From positions 1 to 36,716 of the forward strand of contig JAQURL010000023.1 of assembly GCA_028715625.1 (NCBI GenBank): DNA of 36,716 nucleotides, written 5' to 3'. Under the pieces are notes generated by a model, which worked only from the letters and a program-made list of their open reading frames with translations, was not told the DNA's origin and did not search any database. Made by a program: the position numbers and the translations under genes. This document shows, piece by piece, positions 5,238 through 34,628 of the stretch; the stretch's first letter is position 1, and each line of letters begins with the position of its first letter. Source of the DNA: Candidatus Margulisiibacteriota bacterium (GTDB taxonomy: Bacteria; Margulisbacteria; Riflemargulisbacteria; GWF2-35-9).

Positions 5238-5253
5238 CTTATCTCCATCTCGT

Positions 5254-5320
5254 GTCATGTTGAGCTTGACGAAACATGACCGGACTAAACTTGGTCACCC
5301 TTCGTCAAGCTCAGGATGAC
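5254..5320. repeat. 67-bp palindromic intergenic repeat
   Basis: A perfect 13-base inverted repeat, TGAGCTTGACGAA (5261-5273) and TTCGTCAAGCTCA (5301-5313), is bounded by GTCAT and ATGAC. The RNA would fold into a long hairpin in the hdrA-mvhD gap. It is the best-preserved copy in the window of the family also seen at 2919-3053. Its position in an operon could affect expression of mvhD relative to hdrA, by attenuation or by stabilising the upstream RNA; that is inference. Confidence 0.75.
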
Positions 5321-5354
5321 TCCCACCCATCAACTCATTTACCCTTTTACCCCA

Positions 5355-7831: not shown

Positions 7832-9312
7832 CAATCTCTCCTTATTTCCTGCAACAATTGTCCGCTATTGTTTTTCAGCGCTATATGTAATGGCATTTTC
7901 CCGGGCAAATTATGAGTAGCGCAGGAAAAACAGGGATCATACAAACGAAAGGCCATCTCAACTTTATTCAGAAGACCTTCATCAACAATACCGTTGTGAA
8001 TAAACTTTTGAGCGGCTTTTTTAATAGACATGGCAATTGGCGCATAATTATTGGTAGTGCCGACTATCAAATTTGCTTTGGCAACTATACCTCTTTCATC
8101 TGTTAAATAATGATGGGTTAAAGTACCTCGTGGTGCTTCCACACAACCGATTCCCTCGCCTTTAACACCACTGGGAATAACCCTGACATCAGGGCAAGTG
8201 ATTTCCTCATCTGTTGCCAATTCCAGCATGCGTTCTGCCGCGTAGAGTAGTTCAATAAGCCTTGCCCAATGCGTCGCCAGCCTGAAATGGATTGGTAAAT
8301 AGCGACCGTTTACTTTTTTGCTACCTAAAGTTTCGTACATCTTTTCAAAATGTTCCTGGGCCAGAGGTGTGGCCATACTATCAGCTACGTTAAGTCTGGA
8401 AAGAGGTGTGGCGCAGTAAACTCCGCTACTCGCGCCATCAACAAAACCTTTCCAGCCGATATTTTTCAAATAAGGGAATTTCAAGTATGTCCAGGTCATT
8501 ACTATTTCAGCTATATGCTGCCGGTAATCACACGGATGATATTTTACATATTCCTGACCGTTTGGAGCTACAATCCGCAACATACCATCGTAAAAATTTA
8601 CTCTGTTACTATTGTCCACCAGACCCATGTAATATGTTTCATGCCGATAAGTATCGGAGGTGATAAGGTCTAGATATACAGAGTTTTTTAAAACAATCTC
8701 GTCAAAAGCTTTCAGGGTGAACAAAGCAAACTCAATATTGGCGCGCGCGGTTTTTTCAATACCCTGACGCTCTTCTTCATTAATCGCTTTACTCCAGCCT
8801 CCGGGAAGTCCGGCAGCAGGATGAATTCCACGACCGCCCAGCAACTTGATCACCTCATGATTTCGCTGACGACAGGCTATAACTTGTTTTCCTATATCAA
8901 CCCCTACTTTTCTGATAACCCCCAGAATGTTGCGTTCGCCGGCAGGAGCATCCGGACCTACAATAAAATCAGGTCCGCCCAGAGCATAAAAATGTGTCGT
9001 ATGATCGGTTACAAAAAATGAAGAATAAAAAAGTTCTCTGAGTTTTTTTGCCGCGGAATTGGGCACAACCTGAAAAAGATCATCTAAAGCTTTAGTCGCG
9101 GCCATATGATGAGCTTCAGGGCATACGCCGCAAATCCGGTTTGTGATCACCGGCATATCTTCTGCCGGACGACCTACTACAAACTGTTCAAATCCTCTGA
9201 GCTCGGGAATTTGCAGATACGCGTTTTCCACGTTTCCGTCATCATCAAGAAATATCTCTATTTTGCCATGACCTTCCAGCCTGGATATGGGATCAATGGT
9301 CACCTTTTTCAT
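7831..9312 (-). CDS. mvhA: Group 3 [NiFe] hydrogenase large subunit (MvhA-like)
   Basis: The 493-residue catalytic subunit contains both nickel-binding motifs: RICGVCPEAHH (Cys61, Cys64) and DPCFSCATH (Cys461, Cys464). After His467, the usual cleavage point, there remains a 26-residue tail that the neighbouring protease would remove. The L1 motif and the absence of an export signal fit the cytoplasmic group 3 enzymes, which couple H2 oxidation to soluble acceptors; the MvhD and HdrA neighbours point to group 3c. A GGAGG sequence lies five bases before the ATG, and the start overlaps the small-subunit stop by four bases. Subgroup assignment rests on gene context and needs a tree. Confidence 0.95.
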   Translation of the reverse strand: MKKVTIDPISRLEGHGKIEIFLDDDGNVENAYLQIPELRGFEQFVVGRPAEDMPVITNRICGVCPEAHHMAATKALDDLFQVVPNSAAKKLRELFYSSFFVTDHTTHFYALGGPDFIVGPDAPAGERNILGVIRKVGVDIGKQVIACRQRNHEVIKLLGGRGIHPAAGLPGGWSKAINEEERQGIEKTARANIEFALFTLKAFDEIVLKNSVYLDLITSDTYRHETYYMGLVDNSNRVNFYDGMLRIVAPNGQEYVKYHPCDYRQHIAEIVMTWTYLKFPYLKNIGWKGFVDGASSGVYCATPLSRLNVADSMATPLAQEHFEKMYETLGSKKVNGRYLPIHFRLATHWARLIELLYAAERMLELATDEEITCPDVRVIPSGVKGEGIGCVEAPRGTLTHHYLTDERGIVAKANLIVGTTNNYAPIAMSIKKAAQKFIHNGIVDEGLLNKVEMAFRLYDPCFSCATHNLPGKMPLHIALKNNSGQLLQEIRRD

Positions 9313-10298
9313 TTGACCCTCCTGTTCACCATAGCTTTGGCCATTCCGAATTTATAAAACGTTCCGGCACAATCCGGTATGTCTTTAAGAATATTCCTAA
9401 TGTACTCAGTTATTTTATCTTCGGACATACCTTTTAACGGTTCTATATCAATAATACTTCCCAAAGCTGAAATCATTTTAGCGCCCTGGTCTTCCACACC
9501 TTCTGCTGCTCCATAGCAACCGATACAGGGCATGTTAACTTCCGGGCATAATCCTCCGCAACCTCCGCTGGTAGCTATGCCCATACAAATAAGGCCCTGC
9601 TCCAGAAGACAGGTTTTTTTATCAGGTATTATTTCCCAGGTCCGGCAAAATTTTTTGATTTTTTTATCATGTTTTATTCTTTTGCATTCTTCGCAGACTG
9701 TAGTTTTGCCAACACCTATCCGGCTTCCTTTTGGGGGAAGCGCGCCGCCGGAAAGAATAAAATCTAAAACATTAATTAGTTGTTCCGGTTCCGGTGGACA
9801 ACCCGGCATATAATAATCAACGTCAACCACCTGGTCCAGTGATCTTACGGTTTCATACAGGGCGGGAAGAGTAAGCTGGCCTTCCTCAACATTGGTATAA
9901 ATTTTTGGTGTTACTCTAAATGGATTGTCAACCGTTAAATTATCCATATAAATATTTTTAAAATGTTCTTCCGTTGAATAAAGATTACTGAGTGAAGGAA
10001 TACCGCCGTCTTTGGAACACGCACCATATGCAATCAATATCCTGCTCTTTTTTCTTAGCAGTTGAGCCATTTCTTCATTATCGGAATTACGTATGGCGCC
10101 GTTAAAAAAAGTTATAAAAATATCTTTATCAGACATTTGTTCTATATCATGCAATTTTGTATCTACCAGACATGGACAAAATATCAGATTAAAATTTGCC
10201 TCAACATCCAGAAGTTTGTCATGAATATTTGCCAGAGAAATTTCACACCCTCCACAGGAGCTGGCCCAATACATAGCTATTTTCGGTTTTATTCCCAT
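9309..10298 (-). CDS. mvhG: Group 3 [NiFe] hydrogenase small subunit (MvhG-like)
   Basis: The 329-residue protein begins with WASSCGGCE (Cys15, Cys18), continues with Cys94 in YGACS and Cys167 in PGCPPEPEQ, the four ligands of the proximal [4Fe-4S] cluster, and has further cysteines from 202 to 261 for two more clusters. There is no twin-arginine signal, which agrees with a cytoplasmic enzyme. It passes electrons from the Ni-Fe site to MvhD. The gene precedes the large subunit with a four-base ATGA overlap and follows hypA after 87 bases. A GAGGGG sequence stands about nine bases before the ATG. The C-terminal extension (about 265-329) is of the type seen in F420-non-reducing hydrogenases. 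Confidence 0.94.
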   Translation of the reverse strand: MGIKPKIAMYWASSCGGCEISLANIHDKLLDVEANFNLIFCPCLVDTKLHDIEQMSDKDIFITFFNGAIRNSDNEEMAQLLRKKSRILIAYGACSKDGGIPSLSNLYSTEEHFKNIYMDNLTVDNPFRVTPKIYTNVEEGQLTLPALYETVRSLDQVVDVDYYMPGCPPEPEQLINVLDFILSGGALPPKGSRIGVGKTTVCEECKRIKHDKKIKKFCRTWEIIPDKKTCLLEQGLICMGIATSGGCGGLCPEVNMPCIGCYGAAEGVEDQGAKMISALGSIIDIEPLKGMSEDKITEYIRNILKDIPDCAGTFYKFGMAKAMVNRRVK

Positions 10299-16155: not shown

Positions 16156-18021
16156 ATGCAAAAATTTAAGATCATCGCTTATAATACTAACGTGGCTGGT
16201 CTGAAGAATATCGCTTTTGTTTTTATAAAACCTCATGCTGCCGCGAACAACGCTGCGCAGGAATTTATTGAACAGTCCCTTGCTAAAAAAGGTATTAATA
16301 TCCTGAGCTCCGATACCATCTCGGGAAAAGAGATCAGACAGAAAAATATCATTGACCGGCATTATTCGGAGATATCTAAAAAATCCGCTGTAAAACCTGC
16401 TGATCTGGAAATATCGTCGGAAGTAAAAACAAAATTTGCTGATATCTTTCAAGCAAACTGGGATAAAGCCATTACTCAAAAGCAAATGATTAACGGGTTT
16501 GAATTCATGAAACTGCTTAATATTGACGCGAAACAGCTTAATGAGCTCTGGGAAAAAGCGGAACGTCATAAAATTGGAAGCGGCTTGTATGCTATTGAAT
16601 ATTTACACCGGGGACAAAAACTTTATGTGCTTAATGGTTTTTACCCGGCCATGCAGGCAAAATATACAAACGAAGACAGTCAGGTTAGATATTATATAGT
16701 CAGCTTTCCGCAAACCGGCTGGCAGGAGTTTCGTAAGCTCATCGGGAGCACCGACCCTCAAAAAGCTGACCTTAACTCTATCAGAGGATATTTTCAGCAG
16801 CATCAGGATGATTACGGTCTTATGGTTACCAACCAGGACAATGTGGTACATGCCAGCGCATCTGCTCTGGAAGCCATGCAGGAACTTATGATCTGGCAAA
16901 ACATTCAACCGCAGGAACATCCGCTGGGCAATGCTTTGCTGGAAAACGGGTTAACTCAGGAAGACCTGGAATACTTTCAAACTAATCCGGTCATATCATA
17001 TAAAGGAGAAAAAACCAATTTATGGAATATTCTTGAGGACAGGAACACAACTGATGCTCTGGATATTATATTGGAAGCATATAGCTATTATATGACCGAT
17101 AAGATCGAAGCGGAACCCGCTGTTTACACCAAAAAATTTCTGGGCTTTACAGAAAAATTGCAGACGGAAATTGTTGGCCTGCTCTTTGAAAAATTCGGCA
17201 ATCAATCTGTAGCTGCACTGTTTAAAGAAATTGCCCTTATACATGTGCAAAATCCTCTGATTAACGAAGAAGTTCTGCTTGCGTCCAAATCTCCAAGACG
17301 GCAATATCTGCTGGAACAAATGGGTGTAAAATTTATTTCTCTGGAATCTTCTTCCAGCGAACATAAACCCGCGGTTTGCACAAATTTTAATAATATTACC
17401 AAAACCGTTGCCGCGATGAAATTGCTCCCCTTTTTAAAAAACAAAGATTTAAAACAGCAAATAATCTTAACATCTGACACTCTTTTATACCTGCATGATA
17501 AATCTGTTGTAGGTAAAGCCGAAGGAAAAACCAAAGCAGAGCAGTTAAAAGCAGCTGAAAAAATTTTATATTCGCTGATGGGCAAAGAACACAGGGTATG
17601 TTCAAGCGTAGTAGTCTTTGACGCCTCAAAAATGGCAATGTACATCAGTTCTGTTCAAACCAGAATTATTTATAAAAAATTAGATTCCTCCACCGATGAG
17701 TTGTTAAAAAAATATATCAGTCTGGCACTGGATGATGAGCTTAAAAACCGCGGACCGCTGGGCAAGGCAGGAGCATATGGCTTGCAGGAACCTGAGATTC
17801 TTCAGCTTATGGAAAAAGTTATCGGAGATCCCTTCACTGTTATTGGCCTGCCTGTCAGAAAAACCGAAACAATGTTAAAAAAATGCGGAATAAAGCTCAA
17901 GGAAATAAAACCTGCTGATCTTTATCAGTCTATCTGGGGTATTTGGGATAAGCAAAAATACTATACGTTGAATGACCGCCAGGTAAATCTGCTGGATTTG
18001 GCCTTCAAAATTATTGAATAA
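16156..18021 (+). CDS. Fusion of NDK-like and Maf-like nucleotide enzymes
   Basis: Residues 18-250 follow nucleoside diphosphate kinase: FVFIKPHAA (Lys25), then after an insertion of about 100 residues GSTDPQKADLNSIRGYF and NVVHASAS, whose His232 aligns with the phosphorylated catalytic His. A linker of about 120 residues leads to a Maf domain at 372-580: LLASKSPRRQYLLEQMG, TSDTLL (Asp441, the Maf catalytic Asp), VVGKA, GKAGAYGLQ and VIGLPV. NDK equalises nucleoside triphosphate pools; Maf proteins hydrolyse modified or surplus NTPs to monophosphates. Such a fusion would make and discard triphosphates in one chain. The start has no ribosome site, only TAAACT six bases upstream. Domain assignments are from motifs; the NDK half is divergent and might be inactive. 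Confidence 0.85.
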   Translation: MQKFKIIAYNTNVAGLKNIAFVFIKPHAAANNAAQEFIEQSLAKKGINILSSDTISGKEIRQKNIIDRHYSEISKKSAVKPADLEISSEVKTKFADIFQANWDKAITQKQMINGFEFMKLLNIDAKQLNELWEKAERHKIGSGLYAIEYLHRGQKLYVLNGFYPAMQAKYTNEDSQVRYYIVSFPQTGWQEFRKLIGSTDPQKADLNSIRGYFQQHQDDYGLMVTNQDNVVHASASALEAMQELMIWQNIQPQEHPLGNALLENGLTQEDLEYFQTNPVISYKGEKTNLWNILEDRNTTDALDIILEAYSYYMTDKIEAEPAVYTKKFLGFTEKLQTEIVGLLFEKFGNQSVAALFKEIALIHVQNPLINEEVLLASKSPRRQYLLEQMGVKFISLESSSSEHKPAVCTNFNNITKTVAAMKLLPFLKNKDLKQQIILTSDTLLYLHDKSVVGKAEGKTKAEQLKAAEKILYSLMGKEHRVCSSVVVFDASKMAMYISSVQTRIIYKKLDSSTDELLKKYISLALDDELKNRGPLGKAGAYGLQEPEILQLMEKVIGDPFTVIGLPVRKTETMLKKCGIKLKEIKPADLYQSIWGIWDKQKYYTLNDRQVNLLDLAFKIIE

Positions 18022-18048: not shown

Positions 18049-19056
18049 ATGCCCGCAAAAATTATTTCTTTAAATAATTCTATTAAACCGATTAACTCTG
18101 CAGAACTGGGTATTTCCACTGAAGACCTGCCTAACCTTGATAAACCGATTAAGCTGACGGCTGGCAAAATGCTGGGGCAGAGGAAAATCAATTTACTCAA
18201 AAAAGATTATCCTGATTTATACAATATTTTGTTTGATGTGGAAAACGCAACCAAACTGTTGAAGATCGCTTCTCAATTAAGAATGAAATTTGATTTTGAC
18301 AAATACAGACCACAGGGCTGGCAAGACCCGCTGGAATACGCCGTTGCAAACAGTTTATACCTGCATCTGGGTGCTGATATTTATATTACTCCGGTAACCG
18401 AGTCCTATCGCCGCCACACTTTATTTGTAATGAACGCTGCCAAACAAATCAGCTTTGCGCTGGAAATAAAAATCCCCGGCGAACTGGACGACCGAAGAAA
18501 TATTTCTCACAAAAATTTTGAAATCGCTGAAAAAATAACGGGTGACCCTGCTACTCAGATAGTCAAACCTTTATTTTTTGAAGCTCTGCCAAAAGGACAA
18601 TATAGTCTGTACAAACAAACATTTAATTATAACTGGAACGAACCGCTGGGAATTATGGGCTACGAATATGTTCAGGGCAGACGACTGTATAATCTGGGAG
18701 AAGTCGGCCTGAAGAGCTTGTTCCTCAGCATTGCCAGCAGTTATAAAAATATAAAAAAATTTTATGACGATCTGGCTGAACAGGCAGTAAAAATTATCCA
18801 AAATATCCATCAGGCCGGTTTTATCTGTCAGAATAACGAAGGCACGGACCTGCATACGGAAAACTTTAAAATATTTATAGAAAATGGAAAAGCCAGGCTT
18901 TTCTTTGTTTCAGATACAGGAGCCTTTCATGAACCGCCGCTATTCAGCCCTGAGACTTATTTCGGTCTGGATGTAAGGAATTTTGCGCTGTCTCTGCAGG
19001 TGTTAATACCTGACCTGGATATTAAAAAATTTGAAGAAAAATATAAAAAGACGTAA
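18049..19056 (+). CDS. Divergent protein-kinase-fold protein, 335 aa
   Basis: Several kinase-fold landmarks appear in order: ALEIKIPGE (a candidate ATP-binding Lys, as in VAIK), an acidic helix NFEIAEKI, a hinge-like IMGYEYVQGR, then IIQNIHQAGF leading to TDLHTENF, which resembles the catalytic loop HxDxxxxN of small-molecule and lipid kinases, and LFFVSDTGAF at the DFG position. The catalytic loop keeps Asp and Asn. No signal peptide or membrane helix is visible. It may phosphorylate a small molecule or protein, or be a pseudokinase. It follows the NDK-Maf gene after 27 bases and lacks a ribosome site; GATAAATT lies just before the ATG. A hairpin 122 bases downstream may end the transcript. 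Confidence 0.6.
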   Translation: MPAKIISLNNSIKPINSAELGISTEDLPNLDKPIKLTAGKMLGQRKINLLKKDYPDLYNILFDVENATKLLKIASQLRMKFDFDKYRPQGWQDPLEYAVANSLYLHLGADIYITPVTESYRRHTLFVMNAAKQISFALEIKIPGELDDRRNISHKNFEIAEKITGDPATQIVKPLFFEALPKGQYSLYKQTFNYNWNEPLGIMGYEYVQGRRLYNLGEVGLKSLFLSIASSYKNIKKFYDDLAEQAVKIIQNIHQAGFICQNNEGTDLHTENFKIFIENGKARLFFVSDTGAFHEPPLFSPETYFGLDVRNFALSLQVLIPDLDIKKFEEKYKKT

Positions 19057-19177
19057 TAAATCCTACCAGCCTTTTTAAATGTTTAGAAATTTTGAAACCG
19101 GGCATATATATAAATGAAACAAAGATAGTATAGGTGTATTTGGGGGTATGGGTTGGTCCGCTTGTCGGAAATCCGCT

Positions 19178-19200
19178 AAATGCCAGTGATTCTGGCGTTT
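19178..19200 (+). terminator. Possible terminator hairpin
   Basis: AAATGCCAG and CTGGCGTTT pair over nine positions (one T-G wobble) around a five-base loop, TGATT, and end in TTTT. It lies between the kinase-fold gene and the PorV-like gene, on the plus strand. The short T run makes it a weak terminator; it could also be a leader structure of the downstream gene. The rest of the 191-bp gap holds no recognisable feature. Confidence 0.45.
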
Positions 19201-19247
19201 TCCCAAAAAAATTAAACACCATACGCATTAAGAAACGGACTTTTTAT

Positions 19248-20135
19248 ATGCGTTTTGGGCTCAAATTACTGACAGTAATTTTCTTTACTGCATTTAGTTA
19301 CGGTGAGATCATCGGCGGTTATGCAAGTGATTATCTGGACTATGGAGTTGGGGCCAGAGCCGCTGCCATGGGTAAAGCTGCCCGGACTATAATGAGCGAT
19401 GCCACAGCCGGCTACTGGAACAGCGCCAGCCTGGCTAAAGTGAAGCAAAGCAGTATAACCTATATGAACATCTCTTTGCTTGATGATGTAAGCTACATAC
19501 ACGCAGGTATGGCATTTCCTTTAGGCAAATCACAAACAATCGCTATCAATTACATCGGCCTTAATGTTGCAGGCATTGAAATGCATAATGGCAATCAACC
19601 TTCAGCTACAGCCGATAAAATATTCAGTGCCGGAGCCGGATCGATAATGATGAGCTATGGCTGGGAGATCAATAAATCTTTCAGTGTAGGTTGTACAGGT
19701 AAGTACGGTTTTCGCAATATAGACCAGAGTAATGACAGCGTGCTCAGTTGTGATCTTGGTTTTCTTATGAATATCAACACTATTAAAGTAGGCGGTAATA
19801 TAAGAAATCTGCTTTCCATAGTTGGCGGAGATACTTCCAATCAATATGAATTAGACCTGGATTTGGGAATAAGCGGTAAAATAACCGACAAACTGCTCCT
19901 GACCATCGACAGTGCCCGCTTGCTCAGAGGTACAGCCTACTATGCGGGACTGGAGTATTTATTTATTGAAAGTAATTCCTTAAACTGCTCACTGCGCGGA
20001 GGTATAAATTCATCAGAAATAAGCGCAGGTTTTGGGCTGCAAGTTTATTGTGTTTCTTTTGATTATGCCTGTATCATTAATAATATTGGTACGCAACATC
20101 AAGTAGCGTTCAGTTATGATCTGGGGGCTTTTTAA
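19248..20135 (+). CDS. PorV-like outer-membrane protein
   Basis: The likely start is MRFGLKLLTVIFFTAFSYG at 19248, a classic signal peptide; the frame extends 38 codons further upstream through a non-coding gap that contains a hairpin. The mature protein (about 275 residues) begins with SDYLDYGVGARAAAMGKA and continues with ATAGYWNSASLA, features of the PorV/PorQ (UPF0164) beta-barrel family. These are outer-membrane proteins; PorV guides cargo of the type IX secretion system to the surface. The following gene, which starts on its stop codon (TAATG), encodes a protein with a type IX-like C-terminal domain, so the pair may be secretion partner and cargo. Other type IX components are not in the window. 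Confidence 0.8.
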   Translation: MRFGLKLLTVIFFTAFSYGEIIGGYASDYLDYGVGARAAAMGKAARTIMSDATAGYWNSASLAKVKQSSITYMNISLLDDVSYIHAGMAFPLGKSQTIAINYIGLNVAGIEMHNGNQPSATADKIFSAGAGSIMMSYGWEINKSFSVGCTGKYGFRNIDQSNDSVLSCDLGFLMNINTIKVGGNIRNLLSIVGGDTSNQYELDLDLGISGKITDKLLLTIDSARLLRGTAYYAGLEYLFIESNSLNCSLRGGINSSEISAGFGLQVYCVSFDYACIINNIGTQHQVAFSYDLGAF

Positions 20136-22075
20136 TGAAGAAAAAACAGCTTATGCTTATACTACTATGCGGGTTTATCTTTGGCGGGCAAGCGCAGAAT
20201 TTTAAATCCACAAATATTTCCGGACTGAACAGTTATAAAGGGGGTTCCAATACTTTCCAGGCCCAAACCAGATTTTCCGAAACCTTGTCAGACGTAAAGC
20301 AGGATAATAATTATTTGAACCTGGACCTGGCCAATGAAATACTTTTTAAATCAAAACATAACGAATTCCCTTCTGTAATAAATATAACAGTATCACCGTC
20401 GTACCTGATACTGGGGCAGGACCTGATCATGGATATTGAGCTCAGCGAAGCATTGCAGGACTGGGCATCGCTTGTTAAAGACTTAAATCCTGTAAAAAGC
20501 TGGGCAAGAAACAATCATATTTATGTCCAGTGCCGACCTCTGGACATCTTTGACGGCACAACCAACCTGCTTTTAACGCTTCTCGATTACGGGCAAAACC
20601 AGAAAATTTATTATTCGTCATTAAATATTATTGTGGATGACGGACTTAACCCCGTACCCTATGAACTTTTAGAAACCGGCATAGCAGATGAGGTACATAC
20701 GGGCAGTCAAATTAACCAGGGTGTTGTATTCAATATGCAGGCCAGGCATAATGAATATGTTTTAAAAAATATAAAATTTTCCATAAATCCTGAATTTGAT
20801 TTTACCCAGATTAATAATATCGCACTTTATACTGTGTCCGGCAACAATAACGAACTGCTGGGAAAGATTGAAATTCCGCAGGGATACGAATTCACTCTCA
20901 ATGTAAAAAGCCAACAAATCATAGACCTTGTTCCAAAAAAATATATGCTCGGCTTTGATCTGGCCGACAGCACGGTTTCAGGTTCGTTAAAATTAACCAT
21001 AACCTCCATTTTAACCCGAAAGCTTACTGGTAATATGTCTGAACATATCACCACTGCAAATATGTCCGGTAAAGAGTTGTCTGTAGTGCCAAAAAGCAAA
21101 CCTATAATTACAGAATCGGAAGTTTATCCGTTTGTAGGGAAATCTCAGCAAATCGAGCCTGATGTGGTTTATCTGGACCCCTTGAAACAACAGTTAAAAT
21201 TTCGTTATTCAGTAGTCAACGCGGATAGCGGCAAAACCGTGAGAGACTGGGAAGAAATAAACGTTAAGTCTCAGGCTTTATCCGAAACAAACGGACAGCA
21301 GAAATTGTATAGCCTGCCCACAAAATTACCGCTGGAGCATAATCAGCATTATCAGCTCATCTATGAACTGGTCGGTGTATCCACCAGCAAACGAATAAGC
21401 AGTAATATCTTTTTGGCGGACCTCACTCCACCCTTAAAGCCTTCATCTGTTTTGTTGCAGCCAATTGTAAATCAAAATTTGCAGCAGGTAGATAATAATC
21501 TGACACTGGATTTTATGTTCAACGCATCTTCAGCGCTGGACCCGGAAAGCGGACTCGCCAGCTACAGGATAATGATGAAATCCTCAAAAAATCCCTACTG
21601 GAAAAATATCTATGAAGATAATGTTATTACAGCAGAGGTGCAGACAGTTCCACTGTCCTTACCCAAAGATGATTCTTATACCTTTAAAGTAGCGCTGAAA
21701 AATAAAGCAGGTGACTGGGGAGATTTCAGCGAAGAATACTCCTTCAATAATACTCAGGCTGACGAACTGGTAAAAGTGCTTTTCAACGCTCCCAATCCTT
21801 TTGACAGCCGCAAGGAAAATACAACCATCTATTATACCCTTGGCAGTCAGGCTAGCGTGGAAATTGATATTTACAGCCTGTTCGGCTACTTCATAAAAAA
21901 ATGGAATTTCACGGCCACTGAACTGGGGACAGCCGGAGATCATATTCTGGTCTGGGACGGAACCAATGTTAACGGAATGAAGGTGGCCAAGGGGGTTTAT
22001 ATTTTGATACTTAAAGCTACGGATAGCGCAGGCAAAACGCAAACCAAAAAATATAAGTTAGCGGTAGTCAGTTAA
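20135..22075 (+). CDS. Large secreted protein with FlgD/T9SS-like C-terminal domain
   Basis: The 646-residue product begins with a signal peptide, MKKKQLMLILLCGFIFGGQA. Most of the length is beta-rich, with Ig- or fibronectin-like segments, for example around the DLTPPLKPSS and LDPESGLASYRIMMK regions (about 430-530). The last 100 residues contain NAPNPFDSRKENTTIYY, VEIDIYSLFGY, ILVWDGTNVNG and KGVYILILKATD, which is the FlgD-like Ig fold used as a type A sorting domain in type IX-secreted proteins. The start codon overlaps the PorV-like stop codon by one base, so translation is coupled. Its precise role is unknown; a surface scaffold or adhesin is plausible. Confidence 0.78.
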   Translation: MKKKQLMLILLCGFIFGGQAQNFKSTNISGLNSYKGGSNTFQAQTRFSETLSDVKQDNNYLNLDLANEILFKSKHNEFPSVINITVSPSYLILGQDLIMDIELSEALQDWASLVKDLNPVKSWARNNHIYVQCRPLDIFDGTTNLLLTLLDYGQNQKIYYSSLNIIVDDGLNPVPYELLETGIADEVHTGSQINQGVVFNMQARHNEYVLKNIKFSINPEFDFTQINNIALYTVSGNNNELLGKIEIPQGYEFTLNVKSQQIIDLVPKKYMLGFDLADSTVSGSLKLTITSILTRKLTGNMSEHITTANMSGKELSVVPKSKPIITESEVYPFVGKSQQIEPDVVYLDPLKQQLKFRYSVVNADSGKTVRDWEEINVKSQALSETNGQQKLYSLPTKLPLEHNQHYQLIYELVGVSTSKRISSNIFLADLTPPLKPSSVLLQPIVNQNLQQVDNNLTLDFMFNASSALDPESGLASYRIMMKSSKNPYWKNIYEDNVITAEVQTVPLSLPKDDSYTFKVALKNKAGDWGDFSEEYSFNNTQADELVKVLFNAPNPFDSRKENTTIYYTLGSQASVEIDIYSLFGYFIKKWNFTATELGTAGDHILVWDGTNVNGMKVAKGVYILILKATDSAGKTQTKKYKLAVVS

Positions 22076-22083
22076 AGGAAATT

Positions 22084-23592
22084 ATGAACACTATTTTACA
22101 TAAAACTGCTTCTCATTCATTGGAAAATTGTTATTATTCTATTATGAAACGAATAATACTGCTTTTAACCTTTTCTCTGGCGTTTTCGCAGTCTATTATG
22201 GAAAGCGGCATTCTCAAGGATAACAGCGGACATCCGGTGACCGTCAATGTTTCCATGCAGTATAAAATTTACCGCAGCCCGGAATTAACAAAACCCTTAT
22301 GGACTTCCGCTCTTCTGACTGTTAAACCTGATGAAGGAGTTTATTCCATCGTTCTTGGTGACAGCACAAACCCGCTGGATGAAAATATTTTTTCAGGGCC
22401 CGGAGATTATTATCTGGAACAAAGTATTAACGGTGAAACATTAAAACCCTTAAAACAAATATTTTATAATCCGCAGTCCATATTTGCGCTCAAGTCTAAC
22501 ACCGCTGATGTGTCGCTGAAGGCTCAGAACTCTGAGTTCAGTGCTCTGGCCAATACAGCAAATATCGCATTGTCAGCTTTAAGTGCTCAGATATCCAATA
22601 CAGCCGACTTTGCTCTGCTGGCGCAATCTGTTTCCTGGATAAATATCACAGACAGGCCGGACATAGTTACAAAAGGAATGCTGGCTCAGGTACAAAGTAC
22701 GGCTAATTACGCACTAAGAGCTCAGAGCTCGGAGCTTAGCGCTCTGGCTGGAACTGCTAATATAGCAATAACCGCAAATACTGCTCTATGGGCTCAGAGC
22801 TCAGGGTTCAGCGCTTTGTCCGGAACTTCTGACTATGCTTTACTCAGTAAAGAAACCGAACTGGCCAGAAAAGTGTACTGGAACAATGTCTATGATAAGC
22901 CTAACAGCCTGGTCTATAAAGACGATACAGAATATATTGCCCCAAAAGCTGCAGTCTCTTCCTCCTCTTACAAAGCTGATTTTGCTTTAACAGCCAATAA
23001 ACTCGTCAGCATGAAAATTTCTCAATTTTCCAATGATAGCGCTTATCTGGCCCAGGAAAGCGACCCGCTGGTAAAATCCTACGCCAAAACAAAGGATGAA
23101 AACCAACTCAGCGTGAGTACAGCTAATTACGCGCTTAGGACTCAGAGTTCGGAGCTTAGTACTCTGGCTAATATGGCTCAAAACGCAAATTATGCAATAA
23201 CCGCGAGCGCTCTGACCAGCATGAAAATTTCTCAATTTTCCAATGACAGCGGATTTATAACCAGCCAGGCGCTTAATAATTTGCAAACCCGGTCCTCAAC
23301 AATGAATATAAGTCCAGGCACCGCCGCAAACATTTTTCTAAATATGAATGACCAAGTCATTCTGGCAAATACAGCAAACGGCCCTGTAAGTATCTTTCTC
23401 CCGGCTGCCGCAAATTTTACCGGCAAATTTTATACAATTAAAAAAATTGATTCAGGCAAAAACAAAGTAACAATCAGAACAAATGGTCTGGATAAAATTG
23501 ACACAGACGACCTGTATTTCCTGTCCATTCAAAATGAATATGTAAATTTGATTAGCGATGGAGACGGGTGGCATATAATCGGAAACAATTGA
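22084..23592 (+). CDS. Secreted repeat protein with tail-fibre-like modules
   Basis: AAAGGA lies four bases before the ATG at 22084, so I keep that start although the signal peptide proper begins 20 codons later (MKRIILLLTFSLAFSQ). Residues 40-130 form a globular domain (YKIYRSPE, GVYSIVLGD). The middle is made of low-complexity modules with TANYALRAQSSELSALA-type repeats and two MKISQFSNDS units. The last 80 residues (ILANTANGP, YTIKKIDSGKNKV, NEYVNLISDGDGWHIIGNN) form a domain shared with the next gene. Such ISQF/W-TNDSGYLT modules and the YTIKK end domain are common in phage tail fibres and in bacterial surface proteins. With a signal peptide and the PorV-like gene upstream, a surface appendage is the better reading. 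Confidence 0.72.
   Translation: MNTILHKTASHSLENCYYSIMKRIILLLTFSLAFSQSIMESGILKDNSGHPVTVNVSMQYKIYRSPELTKPLWTSALLTVKPDEGVYSIVLGDSTNPLDENIFSGPGDYYLEQSINGETLKPLKQIFYNPQSIFALKSNTADVSLKAQNSEFSALANTANIALSALSAQISNTADFALLAQSVSWINITDRPDIVTKGMLAQVQSTANYALRAQSSELSALAGTANIAITANTALWAQSSGFSALSGTSDYALLSKETELARKVYWNNVYDKPNSLVYKDDTEYIAPKAAVSSSSYKADFALTANKLVSMKISQFSNDSAYLAQESDPLVKSYAKTKDENQLSVSTANYALRTQSSELSTLANMAQNANYAITASALTSMKISQFSNDSGFITSQALNNLQTRSSTMNISPGTAANIFLNMNDQVILANTANGPVSIFLPAAANFTGKFYTIKKIDSGKNKVTIRTNGLDKIDTDDLYFLSIQNEYVNLISDGDGWHIIGNN
22990..23108 (+). repeat. 119-bp coding module, copy 1 (diverged)
   Basis: This segment encodes TANKLVSMKISQFSNDSAYL followed by AQESDPLVKSYAKTKDENQL. It matches, without a gap, the modules at 23946-24064 and 24222-24340 in the next gene, all exactly 119 bases long. 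A shorter fourth version (SMKISQFSNDSGF) begins near 23219. Confidence 0.75.
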
Positions 23593-23669
23593 AATTATTT
23601 AAATAACAGGAGGTGGTTTTTTAAAAATTAGTTTATAATTTTGTTTCGAAATATTGGAAAGGGGTTCAC

Positions 23670-25106
23670 ATGAAAAATATCTTTAAATACAAATTAATAA
23701 TTATCACCCTGATAGCCTGCTCCCAGCTTTTTGCCCTCACCAGCAAAAGACCTGACGGGTCTTTACAAATGTATGTAGATACACCATTGGAAGGTCTGGT
23801 TATTTCCATTAACGGTTATATCGGGTTGGGCACTCTGTCACCACAGTCCAGACTGGATGTAATAGGTGACATAAAAGCATCCGGCAAAATTACTGCTGCT
23901 TCTCTTGTAGGTGACGGAGCTCTGCTGACCAATGTTTTCGCTGCCACAGCCAATAAACTTGCCAGCATGGCTATTTCTCAGTTTACTAATGACAGCGGCT
24001 ATCTTACAACAGAATCCGATCCATCGGTCCAATCCTATGCTAAAACCAAAGCTGAGAATCAACTTTCAGTTGGCACAGCGAACGTCGCGCTCACTGCTCA
24101 GAGCTCAGGAATCAGTGTTTTGGCCAATTCAGCACTGACAGCAAATTATTCTGCAAACTCCGCATTACTGGGTAATAAAACTGAAGCGGCCCTTAATGTT
24201 AATAGTGCCTTAACTGCGACTACAGCCAATAAACTTGCCAGCATGGCTATTTCCCAATTTACCAATGACAGCAGCTATCTTATAGCCGAATCTGACCCAT
24301 CTGTCCAATCCTATGCCAAAACCAAGGCTGAAAACCAGCTAAATGTTGCCACAGCCCTGACAGCTGTTACAGCTAATTATGCCGGCAATACAGCACTTCT
24401 TGGCGGCAAAACTGAGGCAGCTCTAAATGTCGCAACTGCAGTAACTGCTACTACCGCCAATTACGCAATCGCTGCAGGTTCAGCCATTAACGCGCAGAAT
24501 GCTAATAATGCCTCATTATTAGGCGGCAAAACTGAAACTGCTCTGAACGTTAACAGTGCTCTGACATCAGCAACCGCAAATTATGCTTCTAACTCGGGTT
24601 TATTGAGTAATAAAACTGAATCAGCTTTAAACGTTAATAGCTCACTAACATCAACTACAGCCAACAAAGCTCTGGCCATGGATTCCTCAGGACTTACTGG
24701 TGCCGTAAATGTAAGTTCCACTGCACCTGCAGGCTCATTGGTGCTTACTTCTGCGGGAGCAACCGGTATAAAAACAGCAAACCCCAATAGCACTCTTGAT
24801 GTTAACGGATCACTGTCTGTAGCTTTAAGCATCAAAACTTCCAGCTATACTCTCACCGGATCAGACAGCATAGTGCTGGCTAATGCCGGCAACGGGCAAA
24901 TAACCATGACCCTGCCGACCGCAGCAGGTATAGACGGCAGATACTACACGATTAAGAAGATAGATACCGGCAAAAACAAAGTTGTCATTGCTACCAGCGC
25001 AGGACAATTGATAGACAAGGACAGCACCTATGTTTTAACCATGCAATATGAATATGTAACTCTGGTTAGTGATGGAAGCAACTGGGTGATCATAGGAAAT
25101 AATTAA
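23670..25106 (+). CDS. Secreted repeat protein, paralogue of the preceding gene
   Basis: A signal peptide (about residues 1-22, ending LFA) is followed by SKRPDGSLQMYVD and GYIGLGTLSPQSRLDVIGDI, the start of a head-like domain that is also present in the next gene. The body consists of two copies of a 40-residue ISQFTNDSGYL...KTKAENQL module and at least four units of the LLGGKTEAALNVNSALT type separated by TANYA segments. This short-period pattern suggests a beta-helical or trimeric stalk. The C-terminal domain (YTIKKIDTGKNKV, YEYVTLVSDGSNWVIIGNN) matches that of the previous protein. A GGAAAGGGG ribosome site is present. A surface fibre or adhesin is the likely role; the binding partner is unknown. 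Confidence 0.75.
   Translation: MKNIFKYKLIIITLIACSQLFALTSKRPDGSLQMYVDTPLEGLVISINGYIGLGTLSPQSRLDVIGDIKASGKITAASLVGDGALLTNVFAATANKLASMAISQFTNDSGYLTTESDPSVQSYAKTKAENQLSVGTANVALTAQSSGISVLANSALTANYSANSALLGNKTEAALNVNSALTATTANKLASMAISQFTNDSSYLIAESDPSVQSYAKTKAENQLNVATALTAVTANYAGNTALLGGKTEAALNVATAVTATTANYAIAAGSAINAQNANNASLLGGKTETALNVNSALTSATANYASNSGLLSNKTESALNVNSSLTSTTANKALAMDSSGLTGAVNVSSTAPAGSLVLTSAGATGIKTANPNSTLDVNGSLSVALSIKTSSYTLTGSDSIVLANAGNGQITMTLPTAAGIDGRYYTIKKIDTGKNKVVIATSAGQLIDKDSTYVLTMQYEYVTLVSDGSNWVIIGNN
23946..24064 (+). repeat. 119-bp coding module, copy 2
   Basis: It encodes the TANKLASMAISQFTNDSGYL and TTESDPSVQSYAKTKAENQL halves. Copy 3 lies 276 bases further on and differs mostly at synonymous positions. 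Confidence 0.8.
24222..24340 (+). repeat. 119-bp coding module, copy 3
   Basis: It is closely similar to copy 2 and has the same length. The differences are mainly third-position changes such as TCTCAGTTT against TCCCAATTT, so the protein unit is conserved while the DNA has drifted. Confidence 0.8.
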
Positions 25107-29086: not shown

Positions 29087-31120
29087 TTAAATCAGGGAAA
29101 AAACTTTTCTGTTTTTTAGTTTGTCAAAATAGATTACATAGCCCAGGGCGATATCAAAATGCGCCTGCGCCCAGGTACGATGATAGTGGTATTTAGGTAT
29201 TGGATTTTCTTTGGTATATGGACCTTTAGGAGGAATATCTTTTGCTGAAAATCCCGGACGAAAATCAAGAAAATTACTGGAAGGTGTAACATAACTGCCG
29301 TTAGCTAGCTTCTTTACAAGACCCTTGGGCAGTACTGAGTTTGTCCATGCCTGGGAGTAATCCGGACGATATTCCAGCGGAGCAATACCGACACCATCAT
29401 AATATTTTTTCCACATACGAGTTAACATTTTTTTTGCAAGCATTGTCGTATGCGTTTTTTGATGTATCCATTTCTGGTTCCCTTCGTCCCAAAACATAAA
29501 TGTCATGGCTAAAAGGGATACGCAAGCAACATCTGAATTATAACCAACAACCTTTGCGCTAAGGTTTAGTGTTTCAGGGGAGCCAGACCATTCCAGGGTT
29601 GACGGAACTAAAACATCTCTGTTAAAAAATGACATTTTAAGATTATTCTTAGCCCAGGGTATCCAGCGCGACAGGATAGCGTAAGCTGTTCTATCACCAC
29701 TTTCATAATAATACTCGGCTACTCTTTCCATTAAAAAGAACTGCCAGCCGGCCCATACATTACTCGGGGGATCATTGTACATCGGAGCCTGGTTGTAGCG
29801 CATACCATAAAAAAACCCTCTGGGTTTATCATAATCATTAATAACACCTCCGCCAACTACACCTTCCTTGCTTTGTACCCAGGAAATTAATTCCAGTTGT
29901 CTTTCCAGAGATTTTCTCCAGGTATTTACTCCCAGACGATCCAGGTAATAAGCTGCCAGAGGATTTTGGTATCCGGAATGAGCTTCGTTGTAGCCAATCC
30001 TCCAGCTCCACTTCCTGTTATATCCATATCCAATGCCGCCACCCCAACCTGCTACCCAGGAAACCAGATAGTGAGCGCTATTTGCACCTTTCCCGCGCTT
30101 CCATCCTTCACCAATCTCATGGAAATATTTATCAAACAATGCGTAACGAATAAAATCTCCCATTTTTTTGGTTCGTTCGATGTAAGGTTTTATATCTATT
30201 TTTTGATTTTTTGCGAAAATGCTGGCCCAGTACATTGACTGCACTACCCTCATTTCGGCATCAGGAGCGCTTATGTATCTCCACTGGGGCTGACTGTCTG
30301 TAACGTATGTATCATTATACCCATATAAACCTCTGCCATGAATATCATAGCTGGGATGAGGAATAGATTTCCAGATAGACTCATTTCTGCCTCGTTCGAA
30401 CAACTTTATTTTGACAGCTTTTGTAGTTCCCTTTTTAGCAAAACCGAACCAGTTGTCCGGGTCTAACATCCAGTGCATCAAATATGGATATCTGCCATAT
30501 TTTTTAGTTAACTCTGTGTATAAGGGGTCAATACCTGGTTTTTTTGAATAGTCTATACGAGCCGGATACTTATGAATATCGTCAAAAAAGGGTACAAAGG
30601 CTGCGGGGTATCCCCAATTATATCTTTCTAAATTGGGCTGTTCTTTTTTGGTTGGAATATACTGGTCCTCAATTATTGCCCAGGTTTTATGGAAATCTTT
30701 CCAGTCACCTGTTAAACCGGCATGGATAGTATTCATCCAGAGTATACTGCTTATTCCTTCTGAAGTGGAGACGTGGCCATGGTCAACCGCCTCTACAATA
30801 AAAGGCTCCACACTATGATAAGGTAGCAGATTTTTGGCAAAATAGCCGTTTTTCGGATCGTAAATATCTTTGTAAAGTTCATTGTGAGCTTTACGAAAAT
30901 TTATATTTGGTTCCCAGGCAATAAATAAAGCAATAGCTAATAAAATTAATAAAAAAATTATCAGACCTGCCCTCTTCTTCTTTTTCTTTTCCGTTATATT
31001 ATGAGCTCGTAGTTTTATTCCATCTTTGAGAACAATTGTGCTTGGCGTTAAGATAATTTTTTTCTTTATCCTGGCAGGTGATATTGTAGTCCTTTTGGTT
31101 AAATGTTTTCTGGTTGCCAT
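29087..31120 (-). CDS. Membrane-anchored glycoside hydrolase family 48 enzyme
   Basis: From residue 75 to the end the protein follows GH48: YKDIYDPKNGYF, PYHSVEPFIVEAVDHGHVST, SEG, GLTGDWKDFHKTW, YPARIDYSKKPGIDPL, MHWMLDPDNWFGF, IPHPSYD and YISAPDAEMRVVQ. Glu110 and Glu121 have the same spacing as Glu44 and Glu55 of Clostridium CelF, where Glu55 is the proton donor. The domain of about 600 residues is full length. GH48 enzymes are processive, reducing-end cellobiohydrolases, some acting on chitin. Instead of a cleavable signal, CBM or dockerin, the N-terminus has 50 very basic residues and one membrane helix (51-68), so it is probably held in the inner membrane facing outwards. GGAGA lies 11 bases before the ATG. 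Confidence 0.92.
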   Translation of the reverse strand: MATRKHLTKRTTISPARIKKKIILTPSTIVLKDGIKLRAHNITEKKKKKRAGLIIFLLILLAIALFIAWEPNINFRKAHNELYKDIYDPKNGYFAKNLLPYHSVEPFIVEAVDHGHVSTSEGISSILWMNTIHAGLTGDWKDFHKTWAIIEDQYIPTKKEQPNLERYNWGYPAAFVPFFDDIHKYPARIDYSKKPGIDPLYTELTKKYGRYPYLMHWMLDPDNWFGFAKKGTTKAVKIKLFERGRNESIWKSIPHPSYDIHGRGLYGYNDTYVTDSQPQWRYISAPDAEMRVVQSMYWASIFAKNQKIDIKPYIERTKKMGDFIRYALFDKYFHEIGEGWKRGKGANSAHYLVSWVAGWGGGIGYGYNRKWSWRIGYNEAHSGYQNPLAAYYLDRLGVNTWRKSLERQLELISWVQSKEGVVGGGVINDYDKPRGFFYGMRYNQAPMYNDPPSNVWAGWQFFLMERVAEYYYESGDRTAYAILSRWIPWAKNNLKMSFFNRDVLVPSTLEWSGSPETLNLSAKVVGYNSDVACVSLLAMTFMFWDEGNQKWIHQKTHTTMLAKKMLTRMWKKYYDGVGIAPLEYRPDYSQAWTNSVLPKGLVKKLANGSYVTPSSNFLDFRPGFSAKDIPPKGPYTKENPIPKYHYHRTWAQAHFDIALGYVIYFDKLKNRKVFSLI

Positions 31121-31496: not shown

Positions 31497-34400
31497 TTAC
31501 TCTATTTTTCTGACTTTCTTCCTTAGATTATTTAATATTCGAAGCGCTTCTTCAGGGTTATTAGACTCGCTAATCGCCTGATAATCACTATATTGCAAAC
31601 ATGCGGGAGGCAAAATTCTAACATTATCAGGCTCATCTGTACGCAGCTCCATCTTTACTTTAATCAGTGGCCATTTATTAATAATCTCACCGCAATAGTC
31701 GTATACCTTGAAACCGCTTCTCGCGTAACGCTGTACAACCCAATCATTTTTCGGGCTGGCAGAAGTTTCCAGTATAATACGTTTTATTCCTTGTTGTTTG
31801 GCCCTTTGTTTGAGTTTAATAAGCATCTTCTTGAAAAGCCCCATACCCTGATAATCATTATCCACGGCTGTTTTGGAAACATAGATGACCGGCTCCCCAT
31901 TTTCCGTTTTCTGATAAGCCAGCATCATTCCGGCGATTATCCCTTGTGCCTGAGCAATTTGCGAAAATTCCCATTTGCCGGTTTCTTCTCTTAAATAATA
32001 GGACCTTCTTGCTTTCTCCTGACCTTGAGGCTGGGGTATTAACTTATCAAGTTCCATGATTCTGGAACCTGTAAGGGGGGATTCCATCATACTTTTTGTC
32101 AAAGGTGCAACAAATAAGAAATCATCAGATCCCGTAAACAGATCTTGCAGGATTGAAGCAATGATCCGGCCCAGTTTGTCCAGGTTTTCCCTGTGTTCCA
32201 ATCCCACCGCAATACGTAATGTATGCATGTACCAGTCCATTCGTGTATTGACAAAACCCCAACTGGTTCCATCAGCGATATGGATTCCTTGTGCCGAGGC
32301 TTCCTCAAATATACGACGTTTAATCTCGTCGAAAACCTGGCCGGCTATGTATCTGTCTGTCGGTTCTTCCATAATTTCAAAATATGAATGTATGCAAGAG
32401 TCAGGGTCATAATGAAACGCAAAAGATACTTTATGGACTATATTCATATCCTTGGGATCCTTAATGTTTAGGAATCTTTGTCCTGTGCTTTGATCTTGAT
32501 AATTGAAACGCTTTGATTTATACGGGTCTTTGACCAAAAATTCCCCCAATTGTTCTGTAAGGACTTTGTTAAGTTCAATAGTATTACGTTGTCTTTTACG
32601 GACCATAAAATCCAGATACCTTTTTTGAGAAGATTGATTCTCCTCTAACCGTTGGAAATAAGTGTTGATAAGCATTTGTTGCGACAAGGCATTCTGCCTT
32701 GTACCTTCCTCATTCAGCCGCGATCTGATTGACAAAAAAAGTCTGTGTGCTGTGTTCTGGTCCTCAGACTTGTCCGAACAGTGTATGCTTATAGCTCCTC
32801 CCTGTAATAAATCTAATCCCAGCTGATGTAATTTGGCATAACTGGGCGTAAAAAATAAAAATACATTATCCGGTATGCCGTTAGGGAAAAGTGTTTGAGC
32901 ATTTATTCCGGCAAAATCCAGGGTATTATCCACCATCAAGTATACAGGATTTGTTATCCTCATGCTGTGTATATCCAGATATCTGCAAAAACTTAAAAGG
33001 TCAAAACTTTCTGTATGAAAAAAAGGAGAAATACTGTTGTCAAGACAAAGCAATTGTCCTGTGGGATGCCGGGAATTGTTTTTGAGAATTGTTTCAACCC
33101 AATCTTCAATCTGCTCCTTATTGATACCTGCCGGCACTGTGATCATTCTCTCCTGCATAGTGACTGGAATGTTCGGATAATGCGGGTTATGTTTGAATAT
33201 ATTCTCCAGAAGAAAGTCGATTTCCCAATAATGAGGTGTAGTATATACTTCACCCACAGATTCCAGTTCCATTACTGTAGCACGCGCTGCGGTCATTCCG
33301 GAATTTGTGGATATATACAGACTGTGCTCCAAAAGACCGATACGACGGTCCAGTTCGTCCACTGTAGTACCCTGTAACCTGTTAATTAACAACGATGAGT
33401 ATTGTATAAGTGTACGCAACCGATAGTAACCTGAATGAAAAGTAAAAGACACATCCCGGACCAAAGGACTTTCTTGTGATTTTATATCCTCCAAAGTTTT
33501 TTCCAGTTGCTGTATCTCTTCCAAAGTTTTTTGTCGAATATATTCATCTGTTTCATTACCTGGTGGCAGTTCTTTTAAACGCTGGATTAAAGGTTTAATT
33601 GTATCTATTAATACTTGATAGGTTCGTTGAAACTCGGTGTAATCCTCATTATTCTTCACGCGCTGTCCGTTTGCAGGTAGATGCAGAAGCGTATCTTCAG
33701 TCTTTCTGGTAGTATTCAATATCTCCTTCAATCGACCTGTAATCGAATAATGTTCTACAACATCTCCTAATGTGGGACGATAGCCCATGGACGCTGAATC
33801 TTGCAGTAATTGATAACGTGTCTGATCACCATTAGTATCAAGGGTGCTGGAATTATCGTCATGAATAAAGGTAACTTTGCGCATTGTTGTCAAATTGCTA
33901 CCAAAAGGGTCATAGGGTTCTTCAATTATTATCTGCGACTGGCTGCAGTATTTTAGTATGAGTTGCTTCAGGTTGTTCTTGTCCGAAGTTGGCAGTACTA
34001 CGTCCGATCGCAGATAAACACTGCTTCTGATTGTATCCATCTTTAATATACTTTTAAACCGATCAATGAAATTACTAAATTCCTCCGTTGAACGCAGGTT
34101 AATCAAATTCATATTAGAACTGGCACCTGGCTTGTGTAATCCTGCCACAAGTTTGTCATCATAAGGAAATGGGCCGGAAATTTTCTTTGCGGAGGCCATA
34201 ACAATATACCTCGCTGCCAATTCCTGGAATCCTTTAACTGATCCCGAACGGATCAGTACTACGTTACGATCATAGTCATCGCCAAACAAACTTGTATTGA
34301 TTTCCGAGCGCAGGTATTTAACATGCCCGGGAAGATTGAGTACACCACCCTGAAATAAACTGGTGTACTTTGTGTGTGCGGGAGAACAATATTCCTGGTT

Positions 34401-34628
34401 CATTAAGGCCAGTTCAGACCAGTCTTTTAGAGTTTCCAGTTCGGAATTTTCATGATATTGTAAAAGATCGATGCGTCCCAAAAGATAGCTGATAATCTTA
34501 TGATTAAATTCGTTCAGCGATGTACCCGCCAATAAAACAGACATCCCATTATTCATCGCGCGCAAGATCGCTGCATTTCTTGTTTGTTCGTTATTTGTTA
34601 CCTTAACAGATATCAGTTTTGTCTGCAC
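31497..34628 (-). CDS. PLP-fold (Cys/Met-metabolism type) and GNAT acetyltransferase fusion, 1043 aa
   Basis: The N-terminal 390 residues are unrecognised and end in a charged coiled-coil-like segment (about 345-385). Residues 425-830 follow type I PLP enzymes of the Cys/Met metabolism family: RRIGLLEHSLYISTNSGMTA (cofactor-phosphate loop), PVYLMVDNTLDFAG (Asp567, to the pyridine nitrogen), FFTPSYAKLHQLGLDLLQGG (Lys599 at the cofactor position) and TLRIAVGLEHRENLDKLG. An insertion sits between the large and C-terminal subdomains. Residues 855-995 form a GNAT domain with YVSKTAVDNDYQGMGLFKKM (acetyl-CoA loop) and SGFKVYDYCG. The start codon is GTG with GGGGG five bases upstream. It may make and acetylate an amino acid derivative; substrates are unknown. 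Confidence 0.82.
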   Translation of the reverse strand: MQTKLISVKVTNNEQTRNAAILRAMNNGMSVLLAGTSLNEFNHKIISYLLGRIDLLQYHENSELETLKDWSELALMNQEYCSPAHTKYTSLFQGGVLNLPGHVKYLRSEINTSLFGDDYDRNVVLIRSGSVKGFQELAARYIVMASAKKISGPFPYDDKLVAGLHKPGASSNMNLINLRSTEEFSNFIDRFKSILKMDTIRSSVYLRSDVVLPTSDKNNLKQLILKYCSQSQIIIEEPYDPFGSNLTTMRKVTFIHDDNSSTLDTNGDQTRYQLLQDSASMGYRPTLGDVVEHYSITGRLKEILNTTRKTEDTLLHLPANGQRVKNNEDYTEFQRTYQVLIDTIKPLIQRLKELPPGNETDEYIRQKTLEEIQQLEKTLEDIKSQESPLVRDVSFTFHSGYYRLRTLIQYSSLLINRLQGTTVDELDRRIGLLEHSLYISTNSGMTAARATVMELESVGEVYTTPHYWEIDFLLENIFKHNPHYPNIPVTMQERMITVPAGINKEQIEDWVETILKNNSRHPTGQLLCLDNSISPFFHTESFDLLSFCRYLDIHSMRITNPVYLMVDNTLDFAGINAQTLFPNGIPDNVFLFFTPSYAKLHQLGLDLLQGGAISIHCSDKSEDQNTAHRLFLSIRSRLNEEGTRQNALSQQMLINTYFQRLEENQSSQKRYLDFMVRKRQRNTIELNKVLTEQLGEFLVKDPYKSKRFNYQDQSTGQRFLNIKDPKDMNIVHKVSFAFHYDPDSCIHSYFEIMEEPTDRYIAGQVFDEIKRRIFEEASAQGIHIADGTSWGFVNTRMDWYMHTLRIAVGLEHRENLDKLGRIIASILQDLFTGSDDFLFVAPLTKSMMESPLTGSRIMELDKLIPQPQGQEKARRSYYLREETGKWEFSQIAQAQGIIAGMMLAYQKTENGEPVIYVSKTAVDNDYQGMGLFKKMLIKLKQRAKQQGIKRIILETSASPKNDWVVQRYARSGFKVYDYCGEIINKWPLIKVKMELRTDEPDNVRILPPACLQYSDYQAISESNNPEEALRILNNLRKKVRKIE

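Follow-up and report, generated by a model that had tools for sequence, protein, structure and literature searches.

The locus raises the question of whether one long reading frame on its minus strand encodes a genuine enzyme that holds a PLP-dependent domain and a GNAT domain in a single chain and, if so, what such a chain might do. The window, by which we mean the whole stretch of 36,716 nucleotides that was analysed, is a contig of a genome (2.6 Mb, 97% complete) from the Margulisiibacteriota, a phylum known largely from metagenomes. A preliminary description had announced a protein of 1043 residues with the motifs TNSGM, VDNT and SYAKL in its central part. The reading frame is real and runs without interruption from 34628 down to 31497, and the motifs lie where they had been placed, TNSGM at residues 441-445, VDNT at 566-569 (with D567) and SYAKL at 596-600 (with K599). 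The gene and the three parts of its product are as follows.

31497..34628, minus strand: complete fusion gene, 1043 amino acids, with a GTG start, no internal stop and a full-length homologue of 1040 amino acids
33459..34628, minus strand: N-terminal domain (residues 1-390), of no known family and restricted to the fusion architecture
32133..33416, minus strand: predicted fold-type-I PLP domain (residues 405-832), from alignment, profile comparison, model and conservation
31629..32021, minus strand: GNAT domain (residues 870-1000), from a profile match in both proteins and from the fold

A rare fusion protein kept in two families

Two full-length copies of the fusion were found among 74 Margulisbacteria genomes, the window protein and a homologue encoded by a Candidatus Termititenax sp. 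(DYQY01000007.1; locus L007, 5364-8486 on the plus strand). The genus Candidatus Termititenax belongs to the phylum Margulisiibacteriota, and the homologue's genome and the window genome fall within one order but in different families. The two proteins share 43-44% identity and the same three-part domain order. The PLP domain is the best conserved part (51%), ahead of the N-terminal residues 1-320 (41%) and the GNAT domain (38%). No further full-length copy turned up when the scan was widened to 383 genomes, the remaining matches being GNAT-sized or weak and local; a GTDB scan with conserved peptides, which requires exact short peptides and misses distant relatives, recovered the Termititenax copy only; and no further relatives came from plasmids, phages, viral contigs or a single-sequence GTDB scan. 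One match (L004/G034, 24%, residues 667-792) was considered as a relative and rejected, its own sequence being that of a different protein. A search for defence systems gave no match. Because both the domain order and the active-site residues described below are preserved in the full-length homologue from a second family, we conclude that the window protein is a genuine, rare, two-headed enzyme made of an N-terminal domain, a divergent PLP domain and a GNAT domain.

Active-site residues of the PLP domain

In CalE6, PLP is contacted by Ser75, Gln77, Tyr100, Glu143, Asp172, Thr174, Ser194, Thr196 and Lys197 of one subunit and by Tyr46 and Arg48 of the next (PMC4851618). The equivalents of the same-subunit contacts in the window protein are, in order, S443, M445, Y467, D530, D567, T569, S596, A598 and K599, i.e. 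the series Ser, Tyr, Glu/Asp, Asp, Thr, Ser, Lys is present in order. The main positions, compared with enzymes of the cystathionine gamma-synthase (CGS) type, are these.

33294..33308, minus strand: T441-N-S-G-M445, predicted PLP phosphate loop (motif and alignment; invariant in the homologue)
33228..33230, minus strand: Y467, counterpart of the PLP-stacking Tyr in CGS enzymes, CalE6 Tyr100 (alignment, conservation, PMC4851618)
33039..33041, minus strand: D530, at the position of CalE6 Glu143 in the ETPxNP strand (alignment, conservation)
32928..32930, minus strand: D567 of VDNT, predicted pyridine-nitrogen aspartate, CalE6 Asp172 (motif, alignment)
32832..32834, minus strand: K599, predicted Schiff-base lysine, CalE6 Lys197 (motif, alignment, conservation)
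32214..32216, minus strand: R805 of LRIAVGLE, counterpart of the carboxylate-binding Arg in RLSVGLE (alignment, conservation)

A collinear alignment with 18 CGS-type proteins sets S443, Y467, D530, D567, T569, S596, K599, R660 and R805 on CGS residues. With L-INS-i and the same 18 proteins, collinearity extends throughout, over R..T..ELxRR.xLLE, TNSGM, HYWE, LDNSISPFF (ETPxNP-like), VDNT and SYAKL, and in the C-terminal stretches LINTYFQRL comes opposite RGLKTLxxRM and LRIAVGLE opposite RLSVGLE. Smaller CGS sets in MAFFT shift the lysine segment, and its register is therefore based on the larger set together with the pattern of a strand followed by SxxK. S443/G444, Y467, D530, D567, T569, S596, K599 and R805 are invariant in both fusion proteins, and the eleven-residue stretches around the kept residues are 71% identical, as against a circular-shift mean of 50% (fraction 0.0175).

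The region had been called a Cys/Met-type domain in the preliminary description. The order of the residues and the fold speak for this assignment, but the Pfam cut-off, the PROSITE signature and the phosphate clamp speak against it. PF01053 matches the region with 12.4 bits (E=0.057), below its gathering cut-off of 27 bits, and gives no match in the homologue; TIGR01328 reaches E=0.019; every curated cut-off lies above the score of the domain, and a PDB search by sequence with the PLP part returned no further relatives. The PS00868 signature around the lysine matches 13 of the 18 reference CGS-type proteins and neither of the two fusion proteins. Around K599, S596 (three residues earlier) is kept and the Thr immediately before the lysine has become A598. 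The Tyr-x-Arg phosphate clamp is absent, the aligned positions reading I-N-R in the window protein and I-D-I in the homologue. Because it falls below the Pfam cut-off, leaves the PROSITE signature unmatched and is without Tyr-x-Arg, the PLP domain, CGS-like as it is, lies outside the described Cys/Met family, to which it should not be assigned.

Fold of the PLP domain

Although the direct profile search thus stays below the family cut-off, a profile-profile comparison with the 18 Margulisbacterial CGS-type proteins scores 34.2 (E about 1e-3), beyond its controls: the best of 100 column shuffles reaches 27.6 and the reversed profile 16.9. The significant local match spans residues 417-459 only, around the SGM loop, and the alignment in global mode was uninformative.

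A full-length model computed from the two sequences (pLDDT 39) was not good enough to judge the PLP region. Residues 385-840 were modelled with the homologue and five CGS relatives from viral contigs as input, the latter cut to their N-halves as far as VDNT; the N-halves alone were used because the alignment of the viral-contig sequences beyond the DNT Asp is unreliable. This arrangement was the sole one of several tried that had all known anchor residues in register, and it was chosen before the model was seen. Since the five CGS N-half sequences are helper rows, recognition of the fold in the N-half of the PLP domain is partly led; the Lys region is covered by no helper row, and the placement of K599 and its surroundings is therefore not forced by the helpers. 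The model has a mean pLDDT of 66 and a pTM of 0.58, and locally the pLDDT is near 90 in the strand ahead of K599 and about 50 at K599 itself.

Foldseek, run with the 385-840 model against the PDB, returned 503 matches at E<=0.001. The best 50 of the 503 are all type I PLP enzymes, among them aspartate aminotransferases, CGS, cystathionine gamma-lyases, CalE6, a C-S lyase and an allo-threonine aldolase. TM-scores to PDB entries are about 0.3-0.4 and the rmsd is large; low TM-scores are expected because of insertions and weak regions. A type I PLP fold in the middle region is thus supported as to fold class by a model of medium confidence, and we infer the geometry of the pocket around K599 and D567 from the topology.

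The GNAT domain

The C-terminal domain is a GNAT domain by descent, in agreement with the preliminary description. PF00583 matches residues 884-973 of the window protein (E=1.1e-9, 39.1 bits for a cut-off of 20.7) and scores 47.3 bits with the homologue, and GNAT structures rank top in a fold search with the full-length model. Three features of the domain deserve mention.

31833..31850, minus strand: Q927-G-M-G-L-F932, CoA pyrophosphate loop, off-consensus (degenerate RQHRFF in the homologue)
31767..31769, minus strand: E954, conserved candidate catalytic Glu
31725..31727, minus strand: Y968, conserved candidate general-acid Tyr

The acetyl-CoA loop that had been announced is present in position, as QGMGLF, but departs from Q/R-x-x-G-x-G/A by an F at the usual place of G/A, and the corresponding RQHRFF of the homologue is without the key Gly. 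As the CoA loop is lost in the homologue, acetylation should not be taken for granted. Both proteins have E954, N961 and Y968 unchanged, and in RimI-type GNATs a Glu and a Tyr at the positions of E954 and Y968 can act as base and acid. Acyl transfer by the domain is likely.

The N-terminal domain

The roughly 390 residues ahead of the PLP region, described earlier as unrecognised, have indeed no Pfam match over threshold, and nothing better than E=0.5 was found for them in the PDB by sequence. Taken on its own, the N-terminal region is matched in the two fusion proteins only. An NCBIfam TdcA-like match (E=1.1e-4) is seen at residues 12-130 of the homologue and is absent from the window protein. 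One motif stands out.

34296..34316, minus strand: Y105-L-R-S-E-x-N111, invariant in both proteins (conservation); a correspondence to the CGS Tyr-x-Arg is speculative and was seen by eye only

This motif, together with a strand/helix order of residues 123-280 that in a low-confidence model is much like that of PLP-domain residues 437-641, suggests a decayed second PLP fold carrying the missing Tyr-x-Arg. The likeness of the Y105 motif to Tyr-x-Arg was not reproduced by alignment. A profile comparison of the N-terminal domain with the PLP domain gave 21.4, for shuffle maxima of 22.9 and 21.2; the alignments with CGS proteins were unstable; and the inclusion of predicted secondary structure gave no matching register. 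A duplication of the PLP fold was rejected on these grounds as an account of the N-terminal domain and, with three sequence tests giving no support, a decayed second fold stays a conjecture.

Gene neighbourhood

A small acidic protein and a GH48 enzyme had been pointed out next to the fusion on the same strand, with a hint of a link between them. Both lie downstream: an acidic ORF of 57 amino acids runs from 31438 to 31265 behind a good ribosome-binding site, and the GH48 gene occupies 29087-31120 on the minus strand, its product having at the N-terminus a stretch that resembles a membrane anchor and, apart from GH48, no match in Pfam. The link did not survive comparison. A second full-length GH48, besides that of the window, is found in a genome without the fusion (G004), the fusion is found without GH48 in the homologue's genome (G005), and no relative of the 57-amino-acid ORF stands beside the homologue. 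The gene neighbours of the two loci are completely different, those of the homologue being a TonB-type receptor, a periplasmic binding protein and a DUF2147 protein. An operon of GH48 and the small ORF with the fusion was rejected, since the neighbours are not conserved, and the fusion therefore stands alone as a unit. The homologue gene is followed by an ORF of 39 amino acids (8589-8708 on the plus strand of L007) with a good ribosome-binding site, the peptide of which is unrelated to that of the 57-amino-acid ORF.

Other genes of the window may be recorded here. A protein of 621 amino acids (16156-18021, plus strand) unites in its chain, in an unusual pairing, a Maf domain at residues 373-576 (106 bits) with an NDK-like stretch at 190-247 (41 bits). 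It is followed at 18049-25106 (plus strand) by a series of large proteins that have no Pfam match, with the exception of the FlgD-Ig-like end of a 646-amino-acid protein. A cluster at 4815-10298 (minus strand) encodes a Ni-dependent hydrogenase, a maturation protease, an Fe-S/FAD protein and an FlpD (methyl-viologen-reducing hydrogenase delta) subunit.

Possible function and alternative explanations

The structural reading first proposed, a type I PLP fold that carries CGS-like residues and is followed by a GNAT domain, holds, and the architecture is conserved in a second family. As to function, the explanation that we favour, and to which we would give about an even chance, is a single-chain bifunctional enzyme combining a divergent, probably active, CGS-type fold-type-I PLP domain with acyl transfer by the GNAT domain. 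The analysis establishes the reading frame, a domain order common to two families, the fold class, the invariance of the active-site residues and the GNAT fold; for PLP binding, activity, reaction type, acyl transfer and the order of the steps we infer the following. K599 would bind PLP and D567 would hold its pyridine nitrogen, while S443/G444 and S596 would hold the phosphate; Y467 may stack on the PLP ring and act on the leaving group as acid/base, and R805 may bind the alpha-carboxylate of an amino-acid substrate. By analogy with the nearest relatives, the reaction would be a beta- or gamma-elimination or replacement. The GNAT domain would most likely move an acyl group from acyl-CoA to the amine of either the substrate or the product. 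For the N-terminal domain a structural or substrate-selecting role is probable, and it may stand in for the Tyr-x-Arg pair with which a second subunit normally clamps the phosphate. We count in support of the bifunctional enzyme the homologue, the CGS alignment, the shuffles, the fold matches of the model, the invariance of the residues and the GNAT profile and fold; against it we count the scores below cut-off, the low TM-scores with their large rmsd, the pLDDT of about 50 at K599, the helper rows that partly led fold recognition in the N-half, the degenerate CoA loop and the different neighbours.

It is conceivable, though somewhat unlikely, that the PLP domain is the sole catalyst and the GNAT-like domain, without acyl transfer, a structural or acyl-CoA-sensing module. 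Such a module would fit the F at the G/A place of QGMGLF, the RQHRFF of the homologue and the better conservation of the PLP domain (51% against 38%), but both proteins exceed the Pfam GNAT cut-off and the candidate catalytic E954 and Y968, as well as N961, are invariant. The middle domain might also belong to another class of type I enzymes (aminotransferase, alpha-oxoamine-synthase-like or aldolase-like), with the GNAT domain supplying acyl-CoA chemistry. The best 50 of the 503 fold matches do mix aspartate aminotransferases and an allo-threonine aldolase with CGS enzymes, and SxtA offers a precedent, its single chain including a GNAT domain as well as a PLP domain of AONS-like type (PMC2885083). 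We nevertheless consider this unlikely, as the residue pattern follows CGS proteins in the R..T..ELxRRIxxLE-SGM stretch, at the Tyr position and at the LRIAVGLE end.

A further possibility concerns the N-terminal domain and is compatible with the bifunctional enzyme: a decayed second PLP fold would form an internal pseudo-dimer in which Y105 and R107 hold the phosphate and the middle domain keeps the Lys site. The chain would then contain two CGS-like folds, an N-terminal copy that lost the Lys and an active copy that lost Tyr-x-Arg, with the GNAT domain acylating the product; for this extended version, as for the pseudo-dimer itself, we see rather poor prospects. The complementary pattern of a middle domain without the trans Tyr-x-Arg and an N-terminal domain with an invariant Y105-L-R107-S-E-x-N speaks for it, as does the similar strand/helix order, but the latter comes from a low-confidence model and many folds have strands alternating with helices, the comparison of the two halves is at shuffle level, and neither the CGS alignments, which are unstable, nor secondary structure provide a register. 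Finally, the PLP match could be due to chance and the middle region have an unrelated fold, given that no curated cut-off was reached and that the full-length two-sequence model was poor. We disfavour this explanation as very improbable in view of the ordered invariant motifs, the profile score beyond the shuffles and the number and uniformity of the fold matches (503 at E<=0.001, the best 50 all type I PLP enzymes).

Relation to known systems

If active, the bifunctional enzyme would represent a deep branch of the sulfur/amino-acid PLP enzymes, with two reactions per chain and possibly a non-standard cofactor site, and the fusion protein is a defined, expressible target. The preliminary description knew of no enzyme with this architecture, and searches in a library of open-access papers gave none that joins a CGS-like PLP domain to a GNAT domain; SxtA of the saxitoxin pathway is the sole fusion found, of a different type. 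Like the window protein, SxtA unites a GNAT domain with a type I PLP domain in a single polypeptide (PMC2885083), but its PLP domain is of the AONS type, it includes methyltransferase and ACP domains, its domain order is different and it has no CGS-like part.

With the Cys/Met PLP enzymes (PF01053: cystathionine gamma-synthase, methionine gamma-lyase, CalE6), the window protein has in common the type I fold and, in the same order, the SGM loop, the stacking Tyr, the DNT Asp, the Ser and Lys of SxxK and the carboxylate Arg of RLSVG. It differs from them in its score below the cut-off, the unmatched PS00868, the Ala before the Lys, the missing Tyr-x-Arg and its extra N-terminal and GNAT domains. 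Compared with one CGS-type protein (L023), insertions widen the spacings, which are 124 versus 98 residues from SG to Asp, 32 versus 25 from Asp to Lys and 206 versus 162 from Lys to Arg. With the GNAT acyltransferases (PF00583; RimI-like) it shares the profile and fold match and the Glu and Tyr at the expected places, whereas it is set apart by its position behind a PLP domain in a fusion and by a CoA loop that departs from the consensus and is degenerate in the homologue. In glycine decarboxylase, GcvP, one chain contains two PLP-fold halves, one of them active and the other inactive; this is a conceptual precedent only, relevant should the N-terminal domain be a PLP fold in decay.
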